A stretch of DNA of 32,855 nucleotides from Marine group II euryarchaeote REDSEA-S11_B3N4 (GTDB lineage: Archaea; Thermoplasmatota; Poseidoniia; Poseidoniales; Thalassarchaeaceae). Location of the stretch: positions 1-32,855 of the forward strand of contig LURR01000005.1 of NCBI GenBank assembly GCA_001628485.1, in the 5' to 3' direction. Shown in pieces: positions 11,958 to 16,557 of this stretch (the first letter of the stretch is position 1; every line of letters starts with the position of its first letter). The notes beneath the pieces are model-generated. The model made no database searches. It worked only from the letters and a program-made list of their open reading frames with translations, and was not told the DNA's origin. The position numbers and the translations under genes were made by a program.

Positions 11958-13508
11958 ATGTCAGTCGTTGGCATTGATGATATCGCGCTCCATTTCCCAA
12001 GACTATATTTCGCAATGCAGGATTTTGCGGAGTTCAGAGGTGCCGACTATGGCAAACTTAGCAAAGGCCTCGGTCTAGAGGCAATGGCGATACCGGATGT
12101 GCACGAAGACACTGCAACAATGGGTGCAAATGCTGTTTCCAGACTTATTGACAGAAATTCACTGGACCCTTCTTCGATAGGTAGGATATACCTAGGCACC
12201 GAATCGGCCTTGGACGGCGCTAAGCCAACTGCTACTTACATTATGGACATGCTCGAGCAGCGCTATTCAGAGAAATTTGGTGAAAACTCCTTCAGGAATT
12301 GCGATGTAGTGGATATGACATTCGCCTGCATTGGTGCAGTCGATGCGATGCACAATACTCTAGATTGGGTGGCAAGGGGGGGTCAGGAAAGAAACAGGAT
12401 AGGAATAGTGGTTTTTGCTGACAACGCGAAATATGACCTCGGATCTTCTGGAGAGTACACTCAGGGAGCAGGCGGAGGGGCGATACTAATTCGCCATAAT
12501 CCGAGATTACTTGCAATTCCCGATATTTGGGGCGTTTCCACAATGCCAGTTCATGACTTCTTCAAGCCGCGGAGAGAGATTGAGACGCGAACCGTAGTCG
12601 AGAATGTTCTGGAATTGGCAGAGGAATCCGGTGCCAGGTTCACGTCCAATCTAGCAGAGAAGATACTCAAATTACTCCCCAGATCTAAGAAAAAGAACCA
12701 GACCATATTCGAGAATGAGAAAATAATGATTCACAAGGATACTCCTGTTTTCGATGGACAGTTCTCCAATCGATGTTATTCCGAATCTGTCAAACAGGCC
12801 TTCATAGACTTCCGTCGGAAGGCTATTGAGGAAGGCAGGTATAATCCAGAGGATGATGAAATTCTAACTAACCAATGGAGCAGGATTATTGTCCATCTGC
12901 CATATGCTTTTCAGGGGAAGAGGATGTTCCCCGATGTCTTCCGCCACGACCGCAGGGACCTCCCTATGTGGGAAGCCATTGTTGAGGAGATTGGTCCCGA
13001 GCCTTTGCCTTCAGAATTCCCGGATACTCCCGAAGGGATAGAAGAATTCGAAACCGCGAATGACTCCTACAGGAGGCTAATTTCCAAGACTCCGGAGTTC
13101 AAGACATTCGTGGAACAGAGGATTGAGAAGACGCAAAGAGCTTCTAGCCTGATTGGAAACCAATATACTGGGTCAATTTTCCTTGCACTGATGTCAGCAA
13201 TGGAGTCCGATTATATTGAGAACGTAGAGATGGAGGGAAGCCACATTGGCCTCTGCGGGTATGGCTCGGGGGCCAAGGCTAAGGTTTTCGAGGGAGTCGT
13301 CCAACCAGGTTGGAGGGAGATAGCCTCTAGATTCCACCTATTCGAGAGACTATCAACTCGTCATGCCATCAACAAGACGGTTTACGAGGCTTTGCATATG
13401 GGCAAGAGAAAGCGTTCGGTGGTAAAGCCCAGTACAGAGTTTGCCTTGGTAAGCGTCGGCTTAGAAGGAGATCTGGAAGGGCAAAGGAGATACCAGTGGG
13501 TGGAGTGA
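11958..13508 (+). CDS. HMG-CoA synthase, MvaS/eukaryotic-like, with insertion
   Basis: This condenses acetyl-CoA with acetoacetyl-CoA in the mevalonate route to archaeal lipids. The 516-residue protein shows the catalytic triad of the family: Glu82 in GTESALD, Cys124 in DMTFACIGAVDAM, and His313 in IIVHLPYAFQGK. DNAKYDLGSSGEYTQGAGG, GNQYTGSIFLALMSAME and GLCGYGSGAKAKVFEG also match bacterial MvaS and eukaryotic enzymes better than the short archaeal type. About 65-70 extra residues, Lys/Arg/Glu-rich, lie between Cys124 and His313 relative to Staphylococcus MvaS. Start ATG 11958; downstream gene converges with a 2-base gap. Confidence 0.9.
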   Translation: MSVVGIDDIALHFPRLYFAMQDFAEFRGADYGKLSKGLGLEAMAIPDVHEDTATMGANAVSRLIDRNSLDPSSIGRIYLGTESALDGAKPTATYIMDMLEQRYSEKFGENSFRNCDVVDMTFACIGAVDAMHNTLDWVARGGQERNRIGIVVFADNAKYDLGSSGEYTQGAGGGAILIRHNPRLLAIPDIWGVSTMPVHDFFKPRREIETRTVVENVLELAEESGARFTSNLAEKILKLLPRSKKKNQTIFENEKIMIHKDTPVFDGQFSNRCYSESVKQAFIDFRRKAIEEGRYNPEDDEILTNQWSRIIVHLPYAFQGKRMFPDVFRHDRRDLPMWEAIVEEIGPEPLPSEFPDTPEGIEEFETANDSYRRLISKTPEFKTFVEQRIEKTQRASSLIGNQYTGSIFLALMSAMESDYIENVEMEGSHIGLCGYGSGAKAKVFEGVVQPGWREIASRFHLFERLSTRHAINKTVYEALHMGKRKRSVVKPSTEFALVSVGLEGDLEGQRRYQWVE

Positions 13509-14768: not shown

Positions 14769-15944
14769 TTAAGGAGAAATTGACCTATTTATCACGATTC
14801 TCTGTACTTCTTGAGTGCCCTCGTAGATTTGAGTTATCTTGGCATCCCTGAAGAACCTCTCAACTGGGAAGTCCGTAGTATACCCATACCCTCCCAGTAC
14901 TTGCACTGCTCTTTCGGAAACCCACATTGCAGTGTCGCCCGCGAAGAGTTTTGCCATACTGGCATCCATTGTGTGCCTAGGCGCACCTTCCTCATAGTGG
15001 AGCTGCTTCGAGAGGGATGCCTTGTAAACCATCAATCTGGCCGCCTCGGTTCTAGTTGCCATATCCGCTAGGTAATTCCCTACACTTTGATGGTGAGCTA
15101 TAGGCTTCCCGAATGCGACTCGCTCATGAGCATAATTTAGAGCAGCCTCAAATGCTCCTTGGGCTATTCCGAGTGCCTGTGCGGCTATCCCAATTCTTGA
15201 GTTATCTAATGCATTCATGGCTATGGGAAAGCCCTCTCCTACTCCCTTTAGCACATTTTCAATAGGCACTCTGCAATCCTTCAGAATCAACGAGCATGTG
15301 TCACTGGAGCGTATTCCCAGCTTATCCTCCTTCTTCCCTACTGTGAATCCATGGAACGACTTCTCGACAATGAATGCCGTAGTTCCGCCATGCTTCTTGT
15401 CTCCAAATTCAGGGTGATCCACGTCCTTGGCGAAAAGGACGTAAATGTCAGCGCTATCACCGTTCGTCACCCACATCTTCTCCCCGTTGAGGATGTAGTG
15501 GCTACCGTCTTCACTGATCTTTGCCTTACACCCCAGGGCCGCAGCGTCCGTCCCAGCACCTGCCTCTGAAAGGGAATAAGCACCAATCTCATTTCCTGCA
15601 AGTCTTGGAAGGTATTGTTTCTTCTGCTCCTCATTCCCATGCAAGGCAATCGTCATTGAACAAAGTCCGACGTGGACGCAGTACATTACTGAGAACGAGG
15701 GATCAACTCTTGCCAGCTCTTCTACGATTATTGACTCAGATACTGAGTCCACTTGGTTTCCGCCGTATTCGTCTGGAATCGTTACTCCCTGGAGTCCGGT
15801 AGCTTTGCAGAATTCCAACCACTCCTCCAGAGGTGCTCGCTGCTCTCGATCACGTTCCAGGCACGTGGGTGCCAATGTTTCCTCGGCAAACCCCCTTACC
15901 ATCTCTCGAATCATGTTTTGCTCTTCTGTCTCGATGAAGTCCAT
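14769..15944 (-). CDS. Acyl-CoA dehydrogenase (short/medium-chain type)
   Basis: The 391-residue protein has the family hallmarks: AYSLSEAGAGTDAAALGCKA and YILNGEKMWVTNGDSADI (FAD contacts), LGIRSSDTCSLILKDCRVP, NSRIGIAAQALGIAQGAFEA, and ITQIYEGTQEVQRIVINR with the catalytic Glu. It resembles butyryl-CoA dehydrogenase more than glutaryl-CoA dehydrogenase. It oxidises an acyl-CoA and hands electrons to ETF, whose genes lie about 8 kb away on the same strand. The ATG at 15944 matches the usual start MDFxxTEEQ. Substrate chain length or branching cannot be read from sequence alone. First gene of a likely two-gene operon with the PLP enzyme. Confidence 0.92.
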   Translation of the reverse strand: MDFIETEEQNMIREMVRGFAEETLAPTCLERDREQRAPLEEWLEFCKATGLQGVTIPDEYGGNQVDSVSESIIVEELARVDPSFSVMYCVHVGLCSMTIALHGNEEQKKQYLPRLAGNEIGAYSLSEAGAGTDAAALGCKAKISEDGSHYILNGEKMWVTNGDSADIYVLFAKDVDHPEFGDKKHGGTTAFIVEKSFHGFTVGKKEDKLGIRSSDTCSLILKDCRVPIENVLKGVGEGFPIAMNALDNSRIGIAAQALGIAQGAFEAALNYAHERVAFGKPIAHHQSVGNYLADMATRTEAARLMVYKASLSKQLHYEEGAPRHTMDASMAKLFAGDTAMWVSERAVQVLGGYGYTTDFPVERFFRDAKITQIYEGTQEVQRIVINRSISP

Positions 15945-16053
15945 GCTCTCATTGACTCGGAGTAAGAGGATATTGTTAATCTCTCTGAGAAGAGGAATTC
16001 TCTCTCAATCGAATAGTTCAAATCAGGGACTGCCGCGCCGGCGGACGATATAG

Positions 16054-16557
16054 ATGAGTAGCGGCGATTACTTTGAATTCAGCATTGCCCATGACAGGAA
16101 ATATACTCTGGACCATTTATGGGTCCAAGTTCTCGATGATGATGAGGACGATATGACAGTCAAGCTGGGGATTAGCGAGTTCATTAGGGCCGAATACGGG
16201 GATATTCTGCGTGTTGTTCTCTCAAAACCAGAGGACGATAGTGAATTCCAAGTTGATACGGACGAAGGAGAATCGCAAAATGATGATGACGCTCCTGCTG
16301 CACCTATTTCTAGGGGGGACGAGCTAGATACAGATGATTTGATGATCACAATCAGGACCATAGAGGACAGAGTCCTGATTAATGCTCCATTTCCGTGCAA
16401 GATAGTGGAACTTAACGGAGATGTTGAGGATAATTCCGATCTTGTCAACGAGGATGCTTACCAAGACGGATGGTGCATGATAGTTCGACCTCACGAATGG
16501 GACGAAGATATGTACCTCGACGAATCAGAGTACATAGAGTACCTGAACGAGATTTGA
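16054..16557 (+). CDS. GcvH-like protein lacking the lipoyl lysine
   Basis: The 167-residue product aligns with glycine cleavage H protein: KYTLDHLWVQV (like KYSKEHEW), GISEFIRAEYGDILRVVL, APFPCKIVELNGDVEDN and LVNEDAYQDGWCMIVRP. Two things differ. The lipoylation site (ESVKA, seven residues before the AP pair) reads RTIED, leaving Glu104 where the lipoyl-Lys should be. And a very acidic insert of about 30 residues (59-93) separates the two halves. So it keeps the barrel-sandwich fold but cannot carry lipoate at the usual position. The function is unknown; a structural or binding role is possible. Convergent with the nucleotidyltransferase, stop codons abutting. Confidence 0.82.
   Translation: MSSGDYFEFSIAHDRKYTLDHLWVQVLDDDEDDMTVKLGISEFIRAEYGDILRVVLSKPEDDSEFQVDTDEGESQNDDDAPAAPISRGDELDTDDLMITIRTIEDRVLINAPFPCKIVELNGDVEDNSDLVNEDAYQDGWCMIVRPHEWDEDMYLDESEYIEYLNEI

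Follow-up and report, generated by a model that had tools for sequence, protein, structure and literature searches.

We identified in the window, i.e., the whole 32,855-nucleotide stretch of DNA that was analyzed, a gene (16054..16557, + strand) for a 167-residue paralog of the glycine-cleavage H protein, GcvH, that lacks the lipoyl lysine. The assignment is based on the open reading frame, a Pfam match and an alignment with canonical GcvH sequences. The explanation that we consider best, plausible although short of probable, is that this is an old H-protein paralog that would have lost its lipoyl lysine and would now act as a non-lipoylated, non-catalytic binding subunit, with the divergently transcribed acyl-CoA dehydrogenase (ACAD) as its partner. 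If true, an H protein without its swinging arm that is maintained by selection across the order Poseidoniales would represent a second use of the GcvH scaffold in archaea. These archaea are abundant in the surface ocean, and the paralog offers a target that is small and soluble and has a candidate partner, ACAD.

Family assignment and predicted structure

The open reading frame is located on the + strand, where the first-pass annotation had placed it; the antisense reading frame at 16068-16448 is a mechanical ORF. The window protein matches the Pfam GCV_H family (PF01597) with 53.7 bits, over the cut-off of 22.2, in a match split in two stretches; thus, it may be annotated as gcvH despite the absence of the lipoyl lysine. 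Its scores are under the cut-offs of the NCBI models for GcvH, i.e., well under that of the NCBIfam equivalog TIGR00527 (54.3 bits; cut-off 115.85) and under that of NF002270 (63.6 bits; cut-off 117). It also scores under the cut-offs of two GcvH-like families that NCBI separates from GcvH, TIGR03077 'not_gcvH' (27.5 bits; cut-off 144.05) and NF045810 'GcvH_rel_desulf' (25 bits; cut-off 150). All 13 PDB sequence matches of the window protein are H proteins.

The paralogs of the order belong to two families, which we infer to be Thalassarchaeaceae, the window's own family, and Poseidoniaceae, the other family. The AF2 model of the window protein is of moderate confidence (mean pLDDT 65.3), and a structure search with this model returned H proteins first (1onl, E 2.7e-7). 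The AF2 model of an other-family member, which is free of the insert described below, has a mean pLDDT of 81.8 and aligned with E. coli apo-H over 122 residues with Z 16.9 and rmsd 2.0. By these comparisons, together with a Foldseek search, the window protein belongs to the Pfam family and, together with its relative, is predicted to adopt the GcvH fold. Additionally, core residues Y17, H21, W23, G39, N121, Y136 and W140 are common to the paralog and GcvH.

An acid-rich insert, residues 58-88 (16225..16317, + strand), was observed only in own-family representatives, where its length varies, and is missing from those of the other family; in the AF2 model, pLDDT is below 50 for residues 58-62 and 64-83. 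The window protein had been described as two GcvH halves separated by about 30 acidic residues. By manual count, however, 11 of the ~31 extra residues in the insert are D or E.

Loss of the lipoyl lysine

In our alignment, the column of the lipoyl lysine, which holds Lys in 31/31 canonical rows, places Glu104 of the window protein at this position, as had been proposed from the sequence; these rows comprise the copy of the window's own genome and the 30 best-scoring others, and they are biased towards typical GcvH. The Glu104 codon, assigned by the alignment and the model, is located at 16363..16365 on the + strand, as computed from the ORF start. In the AF2 model, at its moderate confidence, Glu104 is found inside the turn between strands 96-102 and 106-110; in the other-family model, the residue at the lipoyl position, by manual count, is likewise in the hairpin turn, which holds Glu.

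None of the 130 extracted paralogs has Lys at this site, where 14 other residues occur: E (43), D (30), F (14), N, Y and S (9 each), I (5), Q (3), L and G (2 each), and M, T, V and H (one each). In a second collection of GTDB contigs, whose species overlap with those of the first, the best 80 matches included 73 paralogs, again with no Lys (0/73), while the remaining seven were canonical copies, all with Lys. One of these 73 loci (L225) is titled Nitrospiraceae bacterium UBA2166 and is probably a mis-binned archaeal contig. Closer to the window, the nine other genomes of its genus have E (eight) or D (one) at the site; thus, a sequencing or assembly error as the origin of Glu104 was ruled out. 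Neither the alignment to GcvH families nor these close relatives, the two places where a lysine could have contradicted the first-pass annotation, placed one at the site. Across Poseidoniales, the lysine is absent from 130/130 paralogs, while the glutamate is not conserved; the occurrence of 14 different residues, and never Lys, indicates that Glu itself is incidental and that the feature would be the loss of lipoylation.

Lipoate ligases generally need a lysine at the exact hairpin tip. Of the 58 extracted other-family members, 53 have Lys at the +2 position from the site (window residue 106), and such a residue could make the paralog a carrier lipoylated or otherwise modified elsewhere. We consider this very improbable. 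The hairpin of the other family aligns without gaps, so the +2 Lys is not a misplaced lipoyl lysine; by manual count on the other-family model, it begins the return strand, while the turn holds Glu. In the own family, the same column is Arg in 44/72 members, the window protein among them, and Lys in 9/72. Among the columns listed, only position 16 is often Lys in both families (34/72 own, 53/58 other), and it is far from the hairpin.

Distribution, phylogeny and selection

PF01597 was matched by 145/145 Poseidoniales genomes, and relatives of the window protein (E up to 1e-10) were found in 143/145, covering all 21 genera sampled. Paralogs were extracted from 130 of these 143 genomes (own family 72/72, other family 58/71); the 13 genomes with a paralog that were left out of the extraction are all of the other family. 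With a paralog profile, the 130 paralogs scored at least 155 bits, versus at most 79 bits for the canonical copies. In two own-family genomes (G044:C9:76876-77220 and G115:C15:125935-126285), an extra GcvH match of 113-116 bits accompanies the stronger canonical one.

We built a tree, midpoint-rooted and based on few columns, from 79 rows (25 paralogs, 31 canonical Poseidoniales copies, 20 sequences of other Thermoplasmatota and three bacterial ones). In it, the 25 paralog representatives form a single clade, split from all other rows by a branch with 100/100 support, and a second branch (100/99) likewise sets apart the canonical Poseidoniales copies. Among the matches listed from 292 genomes of the phylum, none outside Poseidoniales reached the level of the full-length paralogs: the outside-order matches scored at most 83.5 bits, versus at least 154 bits for the full-length matches inside the order. 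In 20 outside-order stretches taken from among the best listed, the hairpin Lys, read by eye, was retained in 20/20. One GcvH-like protein of another Thermoplasmatota genome (L190, 2040-2480) has SAKW rather than ESVK surrounding the Lys and sits on a long branch in the tree.

Within the genus, the paralog is under purifying selection: of 45 pairs, the seven with usable dS gave dN/dS of 0.02-0.23, and the other 38, for which no dS estimate was obtained, had dN of 0.08-0.20. After both sets had been thinned at 90% identity, 69 paralogs were compared with 23 canonical rows. The near-fixed residues peculiar to the paralogs are E8 (0.99), F9 (0.99), R15 (1.00), L22 (0.88), Q25 (0.93), R53 (0.88), E90 (0.91), G122 (0.93), P146 (0.91), H147 (0.83), D150 (0.84) and E159 (0.99). 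The hairpin varies: its E, S, V, K and S are fixed in the canonical rows and variable in the paralogs, and the paralog alignment contains four extra residues in the hairpin of some genera. This drift is what a decaying, functionless paralog would be expected to show. We find such a decay hardly credible, and a pseudogene reading was ruled out by the retention in 143/145 genomes, the purifying selection and the near-fixed own residues. The near fixation of the latter while the hairpin varies suggests, on the alignments, a changed function rather than decay. The earlier proposal of a repurposed barrel-sandwich scaffold fits these observations together with the predicted GcvH fold.

Canonical glycine cleavage genes in the same genome

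The window's own genome (1.30 Mb, 92% complete) carries a canonical GcvH, whose motif is VESVKSV, as well as GcvP, an LplA/B-family ligase and, over the cut-off, two proteins with a biotin/lipoyl domain. A search for GcvT in this assembly was negative. The absence of GcvT is likely explained by an assembly gap, because in genome G104 GcvT and GcvP are ~5 kb apart, and in the window's genome the contig that carries GcvP stops 2.4 kb beyond it on the side where GcvT would be expected. In the order, GcvP is present in 137/145 genomes and GcvT is over the cut-off in 131/145. According to the first-pass annotation, the protein is unable to take a normal part in glycine cleavage, and the absence of Lys in both collections, together with canonical GcvH and GcvP in the same genome, is consistent with this view as far as sequences can tell.

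The paralog could instead be a regulator of glycine cleavage, a pseudo-H protein that, being unable to carry the arm, would compete with lipoylated GcvH while binding GcvP, GcvT or the lipoate ligase. Such a role would be served by the retained H fold and core residues, by the wide presence of GcvP and GcvT in the order and by the ligase in the own genome. We regard it as unlikely, since the residues fixed in canonical copies (the Glu of HEW, TDxAQ except its acid, the Glu of VELP, and ESVKS) are mostly replaced in the paralog and, in the window's genome, none of gcvH, gcvP and the ligase gene shares a contig with it.

Gene neighborhood and the divergent acyl-CoA dehydrogenase

The candidate partner, ACAD, is located at 14769..15944 on the - strand, divergent from the paralog. 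The intergenic region of 109 bases between them (15945..16053) contains blocks conserved over 15 own-family loci, and its position is consistent with back-to-back promoters. The identity of ACAD is based on Pfam and, among solved structures, its nearest relatives carry the names acyl-CoA, butyryl-CoA and short-chain acyl-CoA dehydrogenase; its best NCBIfam model is acryloyl-CoA reductase, with 417.9 bits against a cut-off of 640, and no name was assigned.

A direct profile search located ACAD divergently upstream of the paralog in 127/130 loci; in the other three, only 1 to 127 bases are available upstream before the contig edge. The first gene calling had given ACAD as the divergent neighbor in 83/88 loci, a set that includes the window, leaves out loci shorter than 5 kb and lacks 11 more that were dropped since no called gene spanned their center. 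In the named GTDB loci taken from the best 80 matches, several of whose contigs are also in the first set, ACAD was found in 69/73, and three of the remaining four are at contig ends. The fourth, locus L267 (bases 1-1004), has 1,004 bases upstream with no ACAD, a possible rearrangement or misassembly near the contig end. Neither the paralog nor a close ACAD was found in genomes G013 and G135; since the two genes are linked and these assemblies are in ~260 and ~140 contigs, respectively, the joint absence is uninformative.

On the other flank of the paralog, the next gene is a CCA-adding enzyme in 31 called loci and an HMG-CoA synthase in four (own family in the loci listed), while in the other family it is a phosphoribosyltransferase in 40 loci, mostly followed by Dph2, Orc1, S6e and eIF2-gamma. 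Thus, the ACAD flank is constant and the opposite flank differs between the two families. In the window, an HMG-CoA synthase-like ORF of 516 aa (11958-13508) has its best NCBIfam matches in two stretches, under the cut-offs, as if bearing an insertion.

Nevertheless, a strict neighborhood is weak evidence of partnership, because the neighbors of the canonical gcvH are equally conserved in the order: one downstream gene, RNase H-like on our reading of its sequence, in 31/31 loci, and two upstream genes in 28/31. Additionally, an ACAD that is 69-72% identical was found in 5/6 genomes searched from another order of the class. No paralog was found in the stretches of 3.9-4.2 kb fetched around it; at L296, one of these five loci, gene calling was crude and of poor quality, but a six-frame profile search likewise gave no paralog. 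In these genomes, the paralog profile is matched at the canonical level only. ACAD thus probably predates the pair and is able to work without the paralog. Rate covariation between paralog and ACAD gave a partial r of 0.31 (31 loci) and 0.54 (10 loci), while other gene pairs reach 0.49 and 0.61.

These same data could mean that the repurposed scaffold has a partner other than ACAD and that the neighborhood reflects general gene-order conservation. The equally conserved gcvH neighbors and the ACAD without paralog in another order point that way, while the retention of the ACAD side, in contrast to an opposite side that differs between families, argues against it; we hold this reading to be possible but somewhat doubtful.

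Our preferred explanation, an arm-less binding subunit partnered by ACAD, would proceed from a duplication of the glycine-cleavage H protein, after which one copy would have lost the lipoyl lysine; this paralog would already have been present in the ancestor of Poseidoniales. Judged from their conservation, E8, F9, R15, Q25, R53, H147, D150 and E159 may form its binding surface. The paralog would bind and regulate the divergent ACAD, or dock it to other steps of acyl-CoA breakdown. This possible partnership is the weakest step and should be taken only as a lead, because the gcvH neighbors are as strict and the ACAD of the other order occurs without the paralog. The more specific form, in which a GcvH fold without its swinging arm is a dedicated non-catalytic subunit or regulator of ACAD, joined in the Poseidoniales ancestor to an older enzyme, is one that we offer with some doubt. 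If true, archaeal acyl-CoA oxidation would have taken over a carrier-protein fold for binding alone.

Comparison with known GcvH-like proteins

Within the open-licence literature that we searched, we found no paper describing a Poseidoniales paralog of GcvH that lacks the lysine. Compared with GcvH itself, the paralog shares the predicted fold and the Pfam match, and differs in the missing lysine at the hairpin tip, the scores under the NCBIfam cut-offs, the residues of its own and, in the own family, the insert.

LbpA, the lipoate-binding protein of Hdr-like sulfur oxidation, is also related to GcvH and has a role outside glycine cleavage (PMC6067878). All 95 aligned LbpA sequences are reported to have a strictly conserved Lys (PMC6067878), unlike the 130 paralogs. 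There are no hdr genes among the annotated neighbors of the paralogs, only some of which are annotated.

Simiate / FAM206A, also called ABITRAM, is eukaryotic and was compared by description only. Like the paralog, it has been proposed as a descendant of the glycine cleavage H protein, and it is said to be absent from bacteria and archaea (PMC3859600).

In the structural comparison, GcvH-L of Streptococcus pyogenes (5a35) shares the GcvH fold with Z 12.4, a value below those of the 18 H-protein entries ranked above it. GcvH-L of this species is lipoylated.
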